Of a stretch of 27,843 bases of DNA, positions 4,064 through 27,843 are shown piece after piece (positions within the stretch are counted from its first letter, which is position 1; the number at the start of each line of letters is the position of its first letter). The stretch lies in IMG/VR virus record IMGVR_UViG_3300025137_000206, positions 1 to 27,843 of that record; one strand, given 5' to 3'. The stretch is from a virus. The translations under genes were made by a program, and so were the position numbers. Below the pieces are notes generated by a model that ran no database searches, had not been told where the DNA came from, and worked only from the letters and a program-made list of their open reading frames with translations.

Positions 4064-4080
4064 AATAAGGGACCATGTCT

Positions 4081-5271
4081 ATGACTTCACTTGCAGTAAA
4101 TATCCCACCCCCAGAGGTGCAAGACTTAGAAGCTGTGCTGGCTGACGTCACCAAAGCCAAGTCACTACTGTATCTCGACCACCCTTTCTTTGGTGCGACC
4201 GTTGCCAAGCGTCCCATCATCTACACTGACACTGTGCCTACAGCGGCCATGGCTGCGACAGGTCAAATGTATATCAACCCTGTGTTTATTGAGAACGGAC
4301 TTCAGGGTGTTCGTCTTACGATCCGCAATACTATGTACCTATTGGCTCACGAAGCGCTGCACTACATGCTCTGCCATTCGACACGTCGCGGTGCACGTCT
4401 ACCCCGAGCATGGAACATCGCTGCCGACAAAGTTATCAACGACATGCTTATACATGCCAAGGTCGGCGATCCCATCGAAGGTGGCGTCTACATGGACGGC
4501 GCACGTGAGTATGCAGCTGAGGAACTGTACGACGTCAACGACGAAGACGGTCCAGGGCTAGGCGGCATCGGCGACGACATCGGTGGTCCATGCGATGCCA
4601 ACGGGAAGCCGCTTGACGAGAGCCAGATCAACCAGATCGAAGCGCAAGCCAAGATCGACACGATACAAGCAGCCAAAGCAGCCAAGGCCGTCGGTAAGTT
4701 GCCAGCGTCAATCGAGCGTATGGTCGACAGGATGATACACGTGCTGACCCCGTGGCACACGATACTTGAGCGGTGGATGACTGGTAAGATCAAGGACGGC
4801 CAGTCTTGGCGCACACCTAATCGTCGCTTCATCCACCAAGGTCTGTACTTACCCGGCACCAACTACATACCCAAGATGGGTCCAATCGTTATCGGTGTCG
4901 ATACATCTGGCTCTATCGGCCAGCAAGAGTTGAATGAGTTCAACGCTCACATCAATCGCATCCTTGAGATGTGCAACCCCGAGATGGTCTACGTCGTGTA
5001 CTGCGATGCTAAGGTCAACAAGGTTGTCGAGTACACCCCCGACGACTTCCCCGTACAGCTGTCCCCCTACGGCGGCGGCGGTACATCGTTCCAGCCGGTG
5101 TTCGACTACATCGACGAGAACGGTATCGACCCTGAGGTCGTTGTCTACCTGACTGACGGCTACGGCGATCAGAACCACTTCACCACCAAACACGAGACTG
5201 TGTGGCTGACGACTCATAGCGAGGACTTCAGCTGGGGCACCGTCGTCAAATTCGAAAGCGAGGCAGCATGA
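4081..5271 (+). CDS. DUF2201-like protein: zinc-metallopeptidase-like domain plus VWA domain
   Basis: Numbered from ATG 4081 (396 residues), chosen because AAGGGA (4067-4072) is correctly spaced; ATG 4075 is also possible. The N-terminal half carries HEALHYMLCH (H90, E91, H94, H99), a zincin-type HExxH site, then WNIAADKVIND, a pattern of the putative metallopeptidase part of the DUF2201 family. An acidic/Gly linker follows. The C-terminal half is a VWA fold with the metal-binding DTSGS (274-278) and a second conserved Asp in YLTDGYGD (about 359). VWA proteins bind partners through this metal site and are the usual partners of MoxR ATPases, here encoded upstream. Whether the zinc site cuts peptides is unknown. 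The stop overlaps the next start. Confidence 0.85.
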   Translation: MTSLAVNIPPPEVQDLEAVLADVTKAKSLLYLDHPFFGATVAKRPIIYTDTVPTAAMAATGQMYINPVFIENGLQGVRLTIRNTMYLLAHEALHYMLCHSTRRGARLPRAWNIAADKVINDMLIHAKVGDPIEGGVYMDGAREYAAEELYDVNDEDGPGLGGIGDDIGGPCDANGKPLDESQINQIEAQAKIDTIQAAKAAKAVGKLPASIERMVDRMIHVLTPWHTILERWMTGKIKDGQSWRTPNRRFIHQGLYLPGTNYIPKMGPIVIGVDTSGSIGQQELNEFNAHINRILEMCNPEMVYVVYCDAKVNKVVEYTPDDFPVQLSPYGGGGTSFQPVFDYIDENGIDPEVVVYLTDGYGDQNHFTTKHETVWLTTHSEDFSWGTVVKFESEAA

Positions 5272-12870: not shown

Positions 12871-13180
12871 GGGCAAAGTTAAGAAGCAAGTCAAAGAATA
12901 CTTGAAATCCATCGGGGCGTGGTACTACATGCCTGTGTCCAACGGTATGGGCCGTGTAGGATGCCCCGACATTTTAGTGTGCTACCAAGGTTTGTTTATG
13001 GCTTTCGAAACCAAAGCCCCCGGCAAGATTAAGAACGTTACTGCCAACCAGCAGCGCGAAATTGACGACATCTTACGTGTTAACGGGTTAGCACGTGTGG
13101 TAGACGACGTAGAGCAAGTGAAGGAGGCGATCCGTGACAAAATCATCGAAGCAGGAATTAGCGACGAAGAAAAAGTATAA
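12854..13180 (+). CDS. VRR-NUC domain nuclease
   Basis: A 108-residue stand-alone VRR-NUC (virus-type replication-repair nuclease). Motifs in order are TPEGKVKKQVKEYLKSIGA, GRVGCPDIL (G36, D39), FETKAP (E52, K54) and TANQQREID (Q66), matching the PD-(D/E)XK core. The end (GLARVVDDVEQVKEAI) is the usual C-terminal strand-helix. Stand-alone phage members are structure-specific nucleases thought to resolve branched DNA during replication and recombination. ATG 12854 is used; ATG 12860 is also possible. It overlaps the genes on both sides, by 17 and 47 bases. An inverted operator-like motif lies inside it at 13073. Confidence 0.85.
   Translation: MAMTPEGKVKKQVKEYLKSIGAWYYMPVSNGMGRVGCPDILVCYQGLFMAFETKAPGKIKNVTANQQREIDDILRVNGLARVVDDVEQVKEAIRDKIIEAGISDEEKV
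13073..13084 (-). promoter_or_regulatory. Operator-like motif, copy 9 (inside a gene, inverted)
   Basis: TTACGTGTTAAC is the reverse complement of GTTAACACGTAA, a 12-base match to the motif core. It lies in the VRR-NUC coding sequence, about 50 bp before the next gene start. Confidence 0.4.
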
Positions 13181-13406
13181 CGCTCGTAAAGACGTTATGG
13201 ACAGGCGCGTCGAACAGAACAAAGCCCGTCGCCAAGCTATGGCGGCAGGCAAAGTAAAAAAGGGTGACGGCAAGCACGTCGACCACAAGACCCCACTGGA
13301 CGCAGGTGGCAGCAACGCCAAGTCAAACCGTCGCGTCGTCAAAGCTAAAACCAACAAAGGTTGGCGCGGTAAAAAACCCGGCATGTACACGAAAGGTAAG
13401 ACATGA
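13134..13406 (+). CDS. Small HNH-like protein
   Basis: A 90-residue basic protein starting at GTG 13134, supported by an excellent AAGGAGG (13121-13127) six bases upstream, so a 47-base overlap with VRR-NUC is real. After a Lys/Arg-rich helix the motif GDGKHVDHKTPLDAGGSNAKSN (D50, H51, N61, N65) matches the 'VDHxxPLxxGGsnxxsN' core of small phage HNH proteins, followed by KTNKGW. The first two HNH elements are clear. The last His is replaced by Asn, which is common in this subfamily. It could nick DNA in replication or packaging, or be a non-catalytic DNA binder. The stop overlaps the next start (ATGA). Confidence 0.72.
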   Translation: MTKSSKQELATKKKYNARKDVMDRRVEQNKARRQAMAAGKVKKGDGKHVDHKTPLDAGGSNAKSNRRVVKAKTNKGWRGKKPGMYTKGKT

Positions 13407-13834
13407 ACAATTATCTGTATACAGCTTTAGGGTTGGTGGTGTTCTACATCGGTTTAAAGATGTTTTCGGGCGGCATGAAAAACATGGCGAACCTCGACCA
13501 CTTGTCGTGGTTTCTGGGCAATCCGATATATATGTTTGTCGGCAGCATAATTATGACGCTGGCATGGCAATCTTCTTCGCTAAGTACGACAGCCATTATC
13601 GCTTTAGTTGCATCAGGTGTACTGCCTCTACCTTCTGCTGTTGCTGCTATACTCGGCGCAAATATTGGCACGACAGGTACGATTTGGGCGGCAGGTCTTC
13701 TGGTTAGCAACGGTATGCCAACTGGTGACACGCTGCGTATCGCTATAATCCACACTGGGGTTAATTTGTTGATGGCAGTATCGCTGCTTCCCTTTGCAAA
13801 TCAAATAGCCAAGTTTGTTGGAAGGGTCGGATGA
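13403..13834 (+). CDS. Half-size Na+/phosphate cotransporter (NptA/Na_Pi_cotrans-like)
   Basis: A 143-residue inner-membrane protein. It has the family hallmarks: GLKMFSGGMKNM (17-28), GNPIYMFVGSIIMTLAWQSSS with the QSSS transport motif at 56-59, and AILGANIGTT (82-91). Hydrophobic segments lie at about 5-21, 41-56, 62-86 and 112-131. Cellular Na+/Pi cotransporters contain two inverted QSSS repeats, while this protein holds only one, matching the N-terminal repeat. It may work as a homodimer, modify the host transporter, or transport something else. It is locked between two genes by ATGA overlaps on both sides, so it is an integral part of the operon, not a fragment of host DNA. A possible auxiliary gene for phosphate uptake. 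Confidence 0.85.
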   Translation: MNNYLYTALGLVVFYIGLKMFSGGMKNMANLDHLSWFLGNPIYMFVGSIIMTLAWQSSSLSTTAIIALVASGVLPLPSAVAAILGANIGTTGTIWAAGLLVSNGMPTGDTLRIAIIHTGVNLLMAVSLLPFANQIAKFVGRVG

Positions 13835-14124
13835 ACCCGCGTGAATACAACGTAGGTGAGTCCGACTACTCCAAGCGTACCATACAGCCGTGGGACATCT
13901 GGTATGAGTATGAACTCAACCCGTGGGACGCTGACATCGTTAAGCGCGTCCTGCGCAACAAAGGCGAACGCCGCCTAGACTACGAGAAGATCAAACACAT
14001 CTGTGATGAGCGCATTAGACAGATAGATGAGGAAGAACAACATGCTGGTAGTTCCAGACAAACAAGCACTGCTGGTCAAGTCGAGGAACCCCGACAAGAT
14101 TCTGAATGTTCTCCCGAACGCTAA
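13831..14124 (+). CDS. DUF3310-like phage protein
   Basis: A 97-residue protein starting in an ATGA overlap. The segment YSKRTIQPWDIWYEYELNPWDADIVKRVLRNKGERRLDYEKIKHICDERIRQID matches the short phage family DUF3310: 'hYk.g.iqpiDhi....l....g.iiKYl.R...K....DleKa..yl'. The role is unknown; relatives lie among nucleotide-metabolism and replication genes. The last 27 or so residues (Ser, Gln, Glu-rich) are encoded in a region that also encodes the start of the helicase, and they look unlike a conserved domain. The dual coding of 83 bases is unusual for this window. Confidence 0.75.
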   Translation: MNPREYNVGESDYSKRTIQPWDIWYEYELNPWDADIVKRVLRNKGERRLDYEKIKHICDERIRQIDEEEQHAGSSRQTSTAGQVEEPRQDSECSPER

Positions 14125-22134: not shown

Positions 22135-25100
22135 TTAATTTCCGGTTAATTGCTTCCGATACTTGTCTTCGCGCTTGCTCTGCCGCCGCGAGGCTTTCAT
22201 TAAGTCCGATACAGGTTGACGCTTTAGTGTGCCGCGCTCGTTGTTAAAGAACGGACGGATACGATCTTTGGACGCTTGCAGGTCACGCCACTCCTGTCGT
22301 AGCTCTTTTTGCTTGGCCCTATCGCGGTCAGCTTTTGCGTCGATGTATTCGTTGCGCAGACGACTGCTCTCACTACTAAAGTATTCCGTCAGCTCGTACT
22401 GCTGCCCTCGGGTCCATTTAATTTTGTTGATCTCGGTAGACGGCAGGCCCATGGCGTTCAGCATCAAGCTGCCGATATTTATTTCTCGGGGGTCGATCAC
22501 TACATCGCCGTTAGAAAGCGAGAACCCTTCTGTAGCCAAACGAAATGTTTCTGTGGCCGATCTCACACCCTTTGGCACCGAGTATTCGACGGCTTTTAGC
22601 ATGTCGCCTTTTTCCATGTAGCCAGCTGCTCGGGCAAAGTTAGCTGCTGTCGTACCGACTGGACCGAGAAGTCCAAACCAAACATCTTTTACGCCGTCTT
22701 CACTAGCTTCAAAGTCAACGTACGGCATCGGCTGAAATATTTTTCCCTGACTTAGCTTCGTACTCATATCGACACCGAGGAACGCAGGTAGGCCACGGGC
22801 CAGCACGTCGGCCAGCTTTTCATTTTCTATCTTAGACCGAATGTAACGCTCTAAATCTTCTGGCTCATCCTCATCCCCCAGCAGGGTCGTAAACGCCCAG
22901 TACAGGCTACCCAGCATTGGAACCCCAGTCAGCCCCGCAGTAAGTCCCGCGTGCGCCAGAGAGTAACCCAAAATGCGTCCGCCCACAGCTTTTTCTTCCT
23001 GCGAACCGAACCGAATTTGTTTAAACGCGTCAGTGTAATGCCACGCCATTAAGAACTGATACTTACGATATTGCACTGTGACTTTAGGAAGAGCTTTTAA
23101 CAGCAGTGGAGCGTCTAGCCGTGAGAAGTTACCCTGCGTATCCTGCACGACCGCTGTAGCGTACTCCATCGGCGTCATCTTCATCTGCCGCATAGCATTG
23201 GGATTTTTCTTGGCCATGTCGTACGCAGCAATCGCTGACGAGACACGGTTGTGGGCTTCGACGTAACGAGCCACTTGGTACAGGCGATGCGTCATGCCCC
23301 CGAGAAAGTCAGATGCTTTGTTTATGCTGTCGTAACCAAAATCAAATTTGTCTAAGTTGCCAAGGTCTTCTTCCATGCCGACGTCCAGCAACTGGTGCAG
23401 CTGCAAATACTCTAGCAGCCTGCGGTACTCAGGCGGGGCTTTTTCAATATTGATCCCGACTTGGTTCGTACCCATCAACCCAACAGTAGCCGCCGTCTTT
23501 ACTTGGTTAATGAAGCTCCCGTCAATAATGCTCCTAGCCACACCGTAACCTTTGAACAATGCAGCCCACGTGCCATTGTAGTCGTTAAAGTTCCCAGCAA
23601 TACGCGGTACCGTAACCATGATCGGCTGCGTAGCGTTTGTAAGGTGGTATCCGATGCTAGTTGTCAACATGTAAACAGAGTTGGCCGCAGCAATGCGATC
23701 TTGGATGGGCGTATCCACTTGGTTAAGCGTGTCTTTGTAATGCTTAACAATCATGTTGTACGTGTCTTGCTGTTCTTTACGAGCGCCGCTAGACGGCTTC
23801 GCCTCTGCAAGTGCTGCGTTTATAGTTGCCCCGTTCTCCATCTGCGAAATCAAACTAGCTTCGGCCCGTGCATGAGACAGAAACGACCGCATCATGTTTT
23901 TGTCGTAGCCTGCTCTGTTCATACGTCGTGACCCAGACAACCGAGCGCTGCGCTCGTCCAGCGACTGGAAGTACAAGTTCTTAACTAGGTCTTGGAAGGC
24001 TTTCTTGGCGTCAGCAGGTATAGCCGAGTTATTGCCAGCTTGCAGCGCACCAAGGACTTTCTCGTATACTGCTGGATTGCCGATGCGATCGCTTTCGATG
24101 TCTGCTTCTCTTTCCGACCACTGAGCAAAAGCGTATTTATTTTCGTTAGCATCAACAAATTGTTCTGCCGCCCCCGGCGTATCGAAGAAACTGATCGCAT
24201 AGTGGTCAGGGTCAGACTTTAATTTATCTATTTTTTCACGAAGTTGTTTTGTAACGGCCTTAGGGTCAAGCGCATCGCGTTTATTTTCCGCATCCACAAG
24301 CTGCTGTGACTTCAACTCCCCTGCAAAGTTACCAAATCGTTTGAGAGGCGCGTACGGCCCTTCCAACGCTGCCTCGGTAAAGAACTTTTTGTCCACGCCT
24401 AAGGCTTTGGCTATGGCAATTTTTCTCTGCCGCATGTCTTCACCATGCGCAAACACGTCCTTGGCCAGCTGCTGCTCACTCTCGCTAAGCCCATCAAAAA
24501 TGCGTTTCATTATCGGGTCTATCTTGACCGTCCTGCCCTTAATCTCAGGGTCGTAAGCCCATTTCTGGAAGAACGTTGACTTGCCGATAAAGTCGTTAAC
24601 CGCATCCAGTCGAGCGGGGTCTAAGTTTGTCGCCCGTATGGCAATGTCTTCGAACTGCCTGCGTATCTCGTTACGCGTGGCTTCTGCGGCCAGCATACCA
24701 TCGTACCAACGACCGACGGCAGGCATTTTTTCACGAGACTGGCCGACGATTTGGTGCAGGAACTTGAGAGATTGCGTACCAGCTTTGGCGATAAATTTAG
24801 CGTTGGTAAGGAACGGCTTTACTTGTGGGCCTTGTGTCTTAGCGGCCCAGCTTTCTTTAATACCATATCGAATTTCGTCCACGGTATTTTTCTTGTCGGA
24901 GACGCTTTTCCCCGGCGAACGGCCTACGACAATCAGGTTGTCTTCATCGAACACGACGTTGTTGTACGCAAGCCCTTGATCTGCCGACGTGGCACCGAGT
25001 GTCCCAGCATCAGGAAATATTATACCTTTAACGCCAAAGTCGTCCATCATCATAGAGATGACCATATCCTCTTGCCCAGAGAAGCTGTTTTTACCGCGAA

Positions 25101-27843
25101 ACGCAGGTTTACTTTTCGATTTGTCGGAAAGCTGGTCAGCCATATTGCTTAGCATAGCCGAACTGCGGGGGTGAAACTTTAGCGCCTTCTCCATGCCGCG
25201 GTACACGTCCCACCCAGAAGCACTCATAAACGTCTCACCGAGAAAATCAGTTAAGTCAGACGTCAACGCTGCTTTGGCCTTGTCTTTTTCAGCTTTGGTC
25301 CCCGGGTTGTTTGCGTCAAAAAGTGTAGGGTTGCCCATAAGAAGGGGGTCGTGCCGTTTCCTAATTTCGGTCATCCGCGAGGCGATGTCACTTGTGTTTG
25401 GGTCAGACAAAACAGGACTTTTGTCAAAAATATAGTCTAGCAGGTCAAACGCATCTACCGGTGGTAACGACATAAACATTTTTGTGAGCCTGTCTTCGAT
25501 TGCAGGGTTCTTATAAATCTCTGAACCCCACGCCATCATGTCTTTGTCTTCTACCAGCGTGTCCACAAAGACCAAGTTACCTTCTACGCCCGTCTCCTTA
25601 CGGTAGGCGGCGTAGTCTTTCGACGCTTGACCCTGTATTTTTCGAAGCTCGACCCTCGCCTCTCCGTATTTGTTCATATCAGCTTGCACGTAGTCTTTAA
25701 AGTTGTAGTCAGTCACGGCCTCTACATTAAAACTAACACGCGTCCCGCCTCTAGTTGGGTAGGTAATTATCGTTTCCGTAAGATCATCGGCTGTTTCCCG
25801 AAACTCGATACGTGGCGGTTCAAGAGGGGGTTTATGCCAACCGGGGGCGTTGCGTTCCTTAACCTCAGCTGCTGTCCCAATGGTGTTTCTTGATGGTGGG
25901 TTAAACCTCTGAATTATTTCTGACACCACTGGTGGCATATCGTCGAGTTCAATACGTTTGTTTAGTGGGTTGTTTGGGTCAGAAAGAGCCGCTTCTCTCC
26001 CCTCTTTACCTTTTCGCTTTTCGTCCTGACGTAAATACCAGCGTGCGATAGAAAAGCGTTCAGCCAGATAAGTACCCCAGCCGTAGGCTTGCGCTCCTTC
26101 ACCCATGCCCATGTACGCGTGGTTAAACCGCCTAAAGTCAGCAGTCGCCCCGTGTTTCCGAGCGCGTAGAGATATGCGTGCTGCGCCTTGCGCCAGATCA
26201 ACGACATCCTGTGCAGTAAGGTTATCGGTGTTGTACTTGATTTTACGCAAAGCCTTTTTAAACAGTGCGTACAGTTCACGCAGCAAGCGCCCTATCGGTG
26301 TCTTAACGCTTGGCTCCACGCCCATTGCCGTGGCTTCTTCCAAGAAATAAGCAAGTGTTTCCGACGTGACTATCTCTGGGTCTTTTGCCATGCGCTTATC
26401 GGCCTGCGCTGCATTTTGCACACGTTCAAGCGCTTTTTTGCTGATGATGCTTTCAAGCGAATTATCGTTCTGAGAAGCCCATTCGTTAACTTTCAGTTCT
26501 AACCTTGCTCGGGTATTGGCGTCTACCATCTGGTCGATACCTAGGTGAGAACCGACTTCGTGCATAAAGGCTGCGCGTTCGCCACCGGCTGCAATGTTGC
26601 TAAGGATGAAGTGGGCAGTAGTTGTGCCGTTACTGTCTTCCGAAACCCAACCAAATGACGCTCCGCTCTTTACGTTAGCCAGCGCGTCACCGCCAAGGTT
26701 TTTAAGTATCCGCTGTGCCACGACATCGGACTCGTTGTCGAATATCTTTACTCGCCAGTTGGTGCTTTTACCTGTCAGTTCTTTAGTGAGTTTTTCAAAG
26801 ACTTCTCTGGACCCAGTCTTAGGTTTCGGGTCAACATTAAAATCATTGCCGGTCAGGTCTTTAAACGAGAATCGAGTACCTGAGTTGTTATCCGAAGGGG
26901 CGTCAGGAGCAGCAGCAGCAGCTGGCTTTTTAAGTACCTTTTTCTTAGGCTTTGTTTCTACGACTGTTGGGCGATAATCCTCGTCGGCCTCTGGTGAGAA
27001 ATCATTGCTGTCCTCTGGAACGTTTCCTCCGCGTTCCGCTTTTTGTTTTTCGCGCCTAGCGAGTATGCCGTTTCTAGCGTCTGCTACGTTCTGTGCTTGC
27101 TCAACTGTAGGATTTATGAAGGCCGGGTCGGCTAAAATATCTTCAGCCGTAAATCTACGCGGTTTTTTCTCTACGACTGGGGCTGTTTTTGCTGCGCCTT
27201 GGACGCTTGCAGTTTCTCCATCTTGGCTAGTATCCGCTCCTGTTTCGCTGTCAACGGTACTCCCTTGTCCTTGGCTTCCCGTAGGTGGGGCGCGAGCTTC
27301 ATCAGTACGTTCCGCGCTTTGAGCTGCTGAGCCTTGGTTACTTTCGGTAGGTTGGGCGTCATTGGCTGTCTCCTCTAGGCGTTGTTCTATCTCACGCAAG
27401 TCTGCGGTCAGCAGCTGAAGGTCTTCTGGGGACTGGTTTGATTCTTGGTACTCTAGGACACTCATCATCCAGTCGTAACGATCTTGTTTACTTACCTTAG
27501 CGAACGCAGGTGTGCTATCAGATTTTAGGGCATCCCACTCACTGAAAACCATTCTTGCGTCGACTTCTTGCATTGCAGAGTCGATGTTGCGTTGCAGGTT
27601 CTTGGCGTTCTGCTCCGCGGCTTGTGCCGCCACTTCTTCGTCTGTGGTGGTTTGTTTTTGGGCGAACTCTTGTATTTGCTTGGCAGTGAGGTCTTTGACC
27701 GGCTTGAACTTTTCGGGTGTAAACTCTGTACCCGCCGCCTCAGCCTGTTTCTGCGCTAGTTCGTTTCGTTCAGCTACCGCCTTACGTTCCTGCGCGTTTG
27801 CTGCTTTGTACGCTTGCTTAGATTTAGCGTTACTTTCCGCTAT
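22135..27843 (-). CDS. Giant polyvalent virion-type protein (zincin-like, ADP-ribosyltransferase-like, PLxRFG), 5' end outside window
   Basis: The frame stays open to the window edge, so at least 1902 residues are encoded and the true start lies beyond 27843; the GTG at 27633 is internal. Parts in protein order: a charged helical and low-complexity region (27843 to about 26900); a zincin-like segment with HEVGSH (26562-26545) and a downstream Glu-rich helix TLAYFLEEA; an ART-PolyVal-like region starting FRRFNHAYMGMGEGAQAYGW (about 26130-26060) and ending GVKGIIFPDAGT...NNVVFDEDNL (about 25040-24930); a PLKRFG box (24348-24331) typical of PLxRFG proteins; long helical regions; a hydrophobic Gly/Ala-rich stretch (about 22975-22880); and a very basic C-terminus. 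Such phage proteins are thought to be packaged and injected into the host at infection. Confidence 0.8.
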   Translation of the reverse strand: MAESNAKSKQAYKAANAQERKAVAERNELAQKQAEAAGTEFTPEKFKPVKDLTAKQIQEFAQKQTTTDEEVAAQAAEQNAKNLQRNIDSAMQEVDARMVFSEWDALKSDSTPAFAKVSKQDRYDWMMSVLEYQESNQSPEDLQLLTADLREIEQRLEETANDAQPTESNQGSAAQSAERTDEARAPPTGSQGQGSTVDSETGADTSQDGETASVQGAAKTAPVVEKKPRRFTAEDILADPAFINPTVEQAQNVADARNGILARREKQKAERGGNVPEDSNDFSPEADEDYRPTVVETKPKKKVLKKPAAAAAPDAPSDNNSGTRFSFKDLTGNDFNVDPKPKTGSREVFEKLTKELTGKSTNWRVKIFDNESDVVAQRILKNLGGDALANVKSGASFGWVSEDSNGTTTAHFILSNIAAGGERAAFMHEVGSHLGIDQMVDANTRARLELKVNEWASQNDNSLESIISKKALERVQNAAQADKRMAKDPEIVTSETLAYFLEEATAMGVEPSVKTPIGRLLRELYALFKKALRKIKYNTDNLTAQDVVDLAQGAARISLRARKHGATADFRRFNHAYMGMGEGAQAYGWGTYLAERFSIARWYLRQDEKRKGKEGREAALSDPNNPLNKRIELDDMPPVVSEIIQRFNPPSRNTIGTAAEVKERNAPGWHKPPLEPPRIEFRETADDLTETIITYPTRGGTRVSFNVEAVTDYNFKDYVQADMNKYGEARVELRKIQGQASKDYAAYRKETGVEGNLVFVDTLVEDKDMMAWGSEIYKNPAIEDRLTKMFMSLPPVDAFDLLDYIFDKSPVLSDPNTSDIASRMTEIRKRHDPLLMGNPTLFDANNPGTKAEKDKAKAALTSDLTDFLGETFMSASGWDVYRGMEKALKFHPRSSAMLSNMADQLSDKSKSKPAFRGKNSFSGQEDMVISMMMDDFGVKGIIFPDAGTLGATSADQGLAYNNVVFDEDNLIVVGRSPGKSVSDKKNTVDEIRYGIKESWAAKTQGPQVKPFLTNAKFIAKAGTQSLKFLHQIVGQSREKMPAVGRWYDGMLAAEATRNEIRRQFEDIAIRATNLDPARLDAVNDFIGKSTFFQKWAYDPEIKGRTVKIDPIMKRIFDGLSESEQQLAKDVFAHGEDMRQRKIAIAKALGVDKKFFTEAALEGPYAPLKRFGNFAGELKSQQLVDAENKRDALDPKAVTKQLREKIDKLKSDPDHYAISFFDTPGAAEQFVDANENKYAFAQWSEREADIESDRIGNPAVYEKVLGALQAGNNSAIPADAKKAFQDLVKNLYFQSLDERSARLSGSRRMNRAGYDKNMMRSFLSHARAEASLISQMENGATINAALAEAKPSSGARKEQQDTYNMIVKHYKDTLNQVDTPIQDRIAAANSVYMLTTSIGYHLTNATQPIMVTVPRIAGNFNDYNGTWAALFKGYGVARSIIDGSFINQVKTAATVGLMGTNQVGINIEKAPPEYRRLLEYLQLHQLLDVGMEEDLGNLDKFDFGYDSINKASDFLGGMTHRLYQVARYVEAHNRVSSAIAAYDMAKKNPNAMRQMKMTPMEYATAVVQDTQGNFSRLDAPLLLKALPKVTVQYRKYQFLMAWHYTDAFKQIRFGSQEEKAVGGRILGYSLAHAGLTAGLTGVPMLGSLYWAFTTLLGDEDEPEDLERYIRSKIENEKLADVLARGLPAFLGVDMSTKLSQGKIFQPMPYVDFEASEDGVKDVWFGLLGPVGTTAANFARAAGYMEKGDMLKAVEYSVPKGVRSATETFRLATEGFSLSNGDVVIDPREINIGSLMLNAMGLPSTEINKIKWTRGQQYELTEYFSSESSRLRNEYIDAKADRDRAKQKELRQEWRDLQASKDRIRPFFNNERGTLKRQPVSDLMKASRRQSKREDKYRKQLTGN
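23662..23677 (-). promoter_or_regulatory. Operator-like motif, copy 12 (inside the giant gene)
   Basis: Plus-strand TGTCAACATGTAAACA is the exact reverse complement of copy 10 (15648-15663). It is the only clear copy found in the minus-strand gene, deep inside the coding sequence and far from any start. Confidence 0.45.

Follow-up and report, generated by a model that had tools for sequence, protein, structure and literature searches.

A phage family of single-repeat Na+/phosphate cotransporter proteins, proposed to act as antiparallel homodimers

The window analysed here is a 27,843-nucleotide stretch of viral DNA (IMG/VR record IMGVR_UViG_3300025137_000206, positions 1 to 27,843). Its polymerase, SNF2 helicase, primase-like and integrase genes constitute phage gene surroundings, within which lies a gene for half a Na+/Pi cotransporter. 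The gene, its motifs, its predicted structural elements and the adjoining ORFs are as follows.

13134 to 13406, + strand: 5′ neighbouring ORF, weakly HNH/endonuclease VII-like, with an ATGA overlap with the transporter gene
13392 to 13396, + strand: AAAGG, a ribosome-binding-like sequence read 5′ of the start ATG (duplex energy −3.9)
13403 to 13834, + strand: half Na+/Pi cotransporter gene, 143 amino acids plus stop, with a single PF02690 repeat
13409 to 13483, + strand: predicted helix 1, the first transmembrane helix, residues 3–27 (structure model, pLDDT 85)
13523 to 13612, + strand: residues 41–70, modelled as two short helices around QSSS and read as a putative re-entrant hairpin (compare the NaPi-II models in PMC6325988)
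13568 to 13579, + strand: QSSS, residues 56–59
13628 to 13702, + strand: predicted transmembrane helix, residues 76–100, bearing GANIGTT (structure model)
13655 to 13675, + strand: GANIGTT, residues 85–91
13727 to 13825, + strand: predicted last transmembrane helix, residues 109–141 (structure model)
13831 to 14124, + strand: 3′ neighbouring ORF of unassigned function, with an ATGA overlap with the transporter gene

The start codon of the transporter gene (ATG, 13403) overlaps the stop of the 5′ ORF, and its stop (13832–13834) overlaps the ATG of the next ORF at 13831, confirming the ATGA overlaps given for both sides in a preliminary description of this DNA (13403/13406 and 13831/13834). The same description had called the 5′ neighbour HNH-like, which stands only as a resemblance by eye accompanied by a weak endonuclease VII match in PHROGs (E = 0.003); its DUF3310-like assignment of the 3′ neighbour found no support, as ORF 13831–14124 matched no Pfam family. 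The closest match to both the window polymerase (33% identity) and the helicase (42%) is Rhizobium phage RHph_TM3_14A, where the interval from VRR-NUC to SNF2 holds two small genes and no half transporter. Elsewhere the window carries a tRNA-Trp gene (1122–1197, +), a weak AAA ATPase match (1410–2420, +) and a DUF2201 metallopeptidase/VWA-like gene (4075–5271, +), the latter two annotated in the same order in RHph_TM3_14A, as well as an 1832-amino-acid ORF without a Pfam match (22135–27633, −).

PF02690 (Na_Pi_cotrans) was detected in the 143-residue protein as one stretch (E = 1.4e-14; 54.8 bits against a cut-off of 29.1) and was the sole family above its cut-off. NCBIfam NF037997 (43.5 against 50 bits) and TIGR00704 (46.1 against 210.1 bits) fell below theirs, and no PHROGs family passed. 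The whole record contains a single PF02690 match. QSSS and GANIGTT each occur once in the translation, as had been described; cellular Na/Pi cotransporters have two QSSS repeats in one chain, and the phage protein has one. In a diverse alignment of phage relatives, all 52 of which match PF02690, S57–S59 are invariant (52/52 rows), Q56 is present in at least 90% and the GANIGTT residues are invariant, I88 excepted.

A monomer model built from 52 sequences (pLDDT 85, pTM 0.75) comprises helices at residues 3–27, 32–38, 41–55, 58–70, 76–100 and 109–141, with QSSS between the third and fourth. Residues 41–70 would form a hairpin in this model, hence a predicted three membrane crossings. PDB fold searches with it returned no confident match, and SLC34 was absent from the listed matches. 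VcINDY (4f35, Z 5.0), YdaH (4r0c, Z 4.8) and NaDC3 (8uve, Z 4.2) are of the kind expected, though they were tied with unrelated structures. An earlier model from 23 sequences (pLDDT 69) was discarded as too poor, its fold search being meaningless. By sequence, both repeats of the solved SLC34A2a (9z60) match the phage protein about equally (32 and 35 bits).

Relatives are encoded by at least 586 viral stretches, far more than chance would give. Among the matches listed, 80 relatives share 71–88% identity with the window protein, the length being 142–151 amino acids for nearly all that are full-length; scans with divergent members recovered N-extended relatives of ~164 amino acids, so that nearly all full-length viral relatives span 142–164 amino acids with a single repeat. 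Purifying selection is strong, with a median dN/dS of 0.065 and a maximum of 0.23 across 900 pairs with dS of 0.1–1. The phage protein corresponds to about half of the transmembrane part of cellular proteins, as might the remains of a captured two-repeat gene in decay or an artefact of annotation, but uniform length and selection across hundreds of viral contigs leave that reading hardly any credibility, and a remnant is already refuted by the conservation of the family. The earlier view of the gene as truly phage-borne and encoding half a transporter is strongly supported, and the search of phage databases that it called for did yield further single-repeat members, in several phage types. In INPHARED, matches had less than 39% identity and came from records without annotation (Listeria, Staphylococcus and faecal) that look like host DNA; searching with a member of the N-extended clade gave no match there. 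Four of these unannotated Listeria/Staphylococcus 'phage' records (OR846719, OR848251, OR844989 and OR849875) probably hold host DNA because the genes matched are of the cellular Na/Pi type.

Of ten long viral records (32–67 kb, possibly incomplete), every one had exactly one PF02690 match (10/10), which, allowing for fragments, indicates that no partner repeat is phage-encoded in those records. A second, oppositely biased homologue is therefore absent from the window and from each of the ten. Two-repeat Na/Pi genes do occur on contigs classed as viral (L233–L247), one of them 312 kb long (L237, IMGVR_UViG_3300032046_000001), the viral nature of these contigs being a matter of classification only.

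In cells, the repeat is found in doubled form. Across 349 genomes from two bacterial phyla, PF02690-type matches occurred in 77/198 and 30/151 genomes, other phyla being sampled through plasmid genes only. All listed cellular matches lie in ORFs of at least 252 amino acids, most of 346–723, usually with two matches per ORF, in agreement, for these two phyla, with the earlier statement that cellular members need two repeats. The only short ORFs with a single repeat in the 349 genomes (165–168 amino acids) were on two virus-like contigs. Stringent peptide patterns run against 84,980 species genomes returned just two loci, each on a contig from an uncultured MAG and with phage-like neighbours, and thus no close cellular source gene. 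Locus L119 (PAAV01000031.1), filed under a Chloroflexi MAG, looks phage-like and carries isocitrate lyase, IMPDH/GMP reductase and a solute-binding protein; L120 (DQKQ01000035.1), filed under a Flavobacteriales MAG, looks phage-like too, with an ammonium transporter and a PnrA-like gene. An apparent natural separation of the two repeats in Skermanella was rejected as a plain frameshift: on Skermanella rosea plasmid pSR-2 (L228), the reading frame of the Na/Pi gene shifts between the repeats (~2060–2130), and the annotation covers just its second part.

Two kinds of evidence on the origin of the viral family point different ways. A profile of cellular repeat 2 outscored that of repeat 1 for 118/118 phage proteins (mean 75 versus 52 bits), whereas two trees, built on short alignments with long branches, unite the phage proteins in one clade (99–100% support) nested in neither cellular repeat, at 1.8–1.9 changes per column from the sampled cellular proteins. 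Derivation from repeat 2 was accordingly rejected as a conclusion. A position outside both repeats would fit a lineage older than the duplication, but the long branches bar a firm claim, and on such short alignments a pre-duplication lineage and a fast-evolved half would look alike.

Genomic context was surveyed at 185 loci, some from the same contig. HMO-2011-type neighbourhoods were the most frequent named class (55), followed by T4-like ones (21); loci with an ammonium transporter, PnrA-like or solute-binding gene (19), a DUF4055 portal or MuF protein (14), a terminase gene (10) or only an RNR gene (5) made up the other named classes, the window's own neighbourhood (L044) was seen once and 60 loci were unclassed. 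Counting the HMO-2011-type and T4-like ones, the family spans at least five phage contexts. On the family tree, whose resolution is low, context changed 12 times against a minimum possible of 5 and the window protein was placed among HMO-2011-type copies, which together suggest that the gene has moved between phage types. Just downstream of the half-transporter gene in L062 (6454–10809, +) lies a 1451-amino-acid ORF with a Mu-F-like head domain and a single-subunit RNA polymerase domain.

Several relatives adjoin nutrient-uptake genes. An ammonium transporter lies 44–48 bp downstream of the half-transporter gene in L070, L073 and L078; Amt, a PnrA-like gene and the half-transporter gene are contiguous in L120; and a PnrA-like gene follows directly in L074. 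These arrangements favour a role in nutrient uptake over one in which a surplus half pairs with a host Na/Pi transporter and blocks or retunes it, as a heteromer or dominant negative. Interference of this kind would accord with the match of the phage protein to both repeats of cellular proteins and with the presence of two-repeat transporters in certain marine bacteria (Ruegeria and Leisingera, for example), but we regard it as improbable: the substrate-site motifs, which a mere blocker would not need, are intact under strong selection, and a host partner would often be missing if the true hosts resemble the two phyla sampled, in which the occurrence of the cellular gene is incomplete.

We propose instead, at roughly even confidence and in line with the phosphate-importing homodimer of the earlier description, a phage-specific family of minimal Na+/Pi cotransporters with one repeat per polypeptide, acting as antiparallel homodimers that import phosphate; assembly, substrate and direction are all inferred. 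Each polypeptide would supply a full repeat unit consisting of the first transmembrane helix, the QSSS hairpin, the GANIGTT helix and the last transmembrane helix. Two copies would insert in opposite orientations and then pair, rebuilding the substrate site with two QSSS motifs that cellular proteins make from two fused inverted repeats, and the pair, by bringing phosphate into the host during infection, would supply the synthesis of phage DNA. The topological part of this proposal draws on the NaPi-II proteins, whose repeat units lie in the membrane in inverted orientations and contain broken helices and re-entrant hairpins (PMC6325988), so that a protein with just one such unit should depend on an antiparallel partner.

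Charge distribution is compatible with such insertion and is no proof of it. Counted as side B minus side A, the K/R bias of the window protein is +2 and that of family members lacking the extension 0 to +3; the means for cellular repeats 1 and 2 are +3.9 and +0.8. Known dual-topology proteins range from −2 to +1, and homodimers with inverted symmetry are rare (PMC3962082); the window protein thus lies just outside the published range. The linker after helix 1 has 1.2 K/R in phage proteins versus 4.1 in cellular repeat 1, the K/R-rich helix of the latter having been lost.

T4-like relatives complicate the picture with a lysine-rich N-terminal extension (5–8 K/R) that should fix the N-terminus inside, against strict dual topology. 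In one T4-like clade the extension is conserved with synonymous variation at 12/16 codons, from which we take it to be translated, and the internal Met has a mean SD value of −6.0 versus 0.0 at the upstream start, a stronger signal than at 98.7% of the remaining internal ATGs of the loci concerned. Two start codons might accordingly give a long N-in isoform and a short, oppositely oriented one that together form the antiparallel pair. This we judge rather unlikely, for although the preserved extension and the strong internal SD speak for it, the internal Met is lost in L164, the clade with 'KKV' before Met has a weaker SD signal, the relatedness of the sequences makes the counts non-independent, and the purine-rich codons of the lysine-glycine stretch resemble an SD by themselves. 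Dual starts do not apply to the window gene, as its frame is closed just before the ATG. The broader idea that phages keep functional elevator-type transporters of a single repeat, a 143-residue antiparallel homodimer replacing the fused repeats and a dual start setting the orientations in T4-like phages, is put forward as a tentative and rather unlikely extension of the proposal.

Phosphate as the substrate of the proposed homodimer would follow from family membership. Some cellular relatives may export phosphate (E. coli YjbB), and a homo-oligomer that carries another anion, or exports, would suit both the sole reliance on family membership and the distance of the phage clade from all sampled cellular proteins; retention of QSSS and GANIGTT, and the plausibility of phosphate as a phage need, make this unlikely.

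A phosphate-import role has a precedent. PF02690 has been reported in eight genomes of HMO-2011-type subgroup I phages as a presumed phosphate importer (PMC9038755). Those genes almost certainly belong to the same family, HMO-2011-type contigs here encoding the half transporter, and the proposed role is the same; the relevant passages of that report treat the gene as an ordinary Na/Pi cotransporter, with no mention of the single repeat, the topology problem or the spread. No description of the single repeat or of spread to other phage types was found in the open-access literature. The carriers are many unrelated, mostly uncultured phages with an intact gene for one half of a transporter, and we know of no characterised protein of natural origin in the Na/Pi family that has a single repeat. 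Inverted-repeat transporters are thought to arise from small proteins through duplication and fusion; the family offers a natural way to test how transporters of two halves came about and, being small and abundant, a case on which to examine dual topology and fold origin. It also suggests a route of phosphate uptake in phages apart from pstS and phoH.

These known phage phosphate genes share with the half transporter the presumed aim of supplying phosphate during infection, but they encode, respectively, a binding protein for the host ABC system and a stress-regulon gene product, whereas the half transporter would be a membrane transporter of the phage's own. With bacterial Na/Pi symporters bearing a PhoU-like C-terminus, NptA-type proteins and animal SLC34 (NaPi-II), the phage protein has PF02690, QSSS, GxNIGTx and the predicted order of helices in common; the cellular proteins contain two inverted repeats per chain, often with extra helices and a PhoU-like part, whereas the phage protein consists of one repeat and nothing else. 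The dual-topology homodimers EmrE and Fluc/CrcB resemble it as small membrane proteins with fused inverted-repeat relatives and a single unpaired gene, and to some extent in a weak K/R bias, from which T4-like copies with the extension would depart, although their folds are unrelated and dual topology, demonstrated for them, is inferred for the phage protein.
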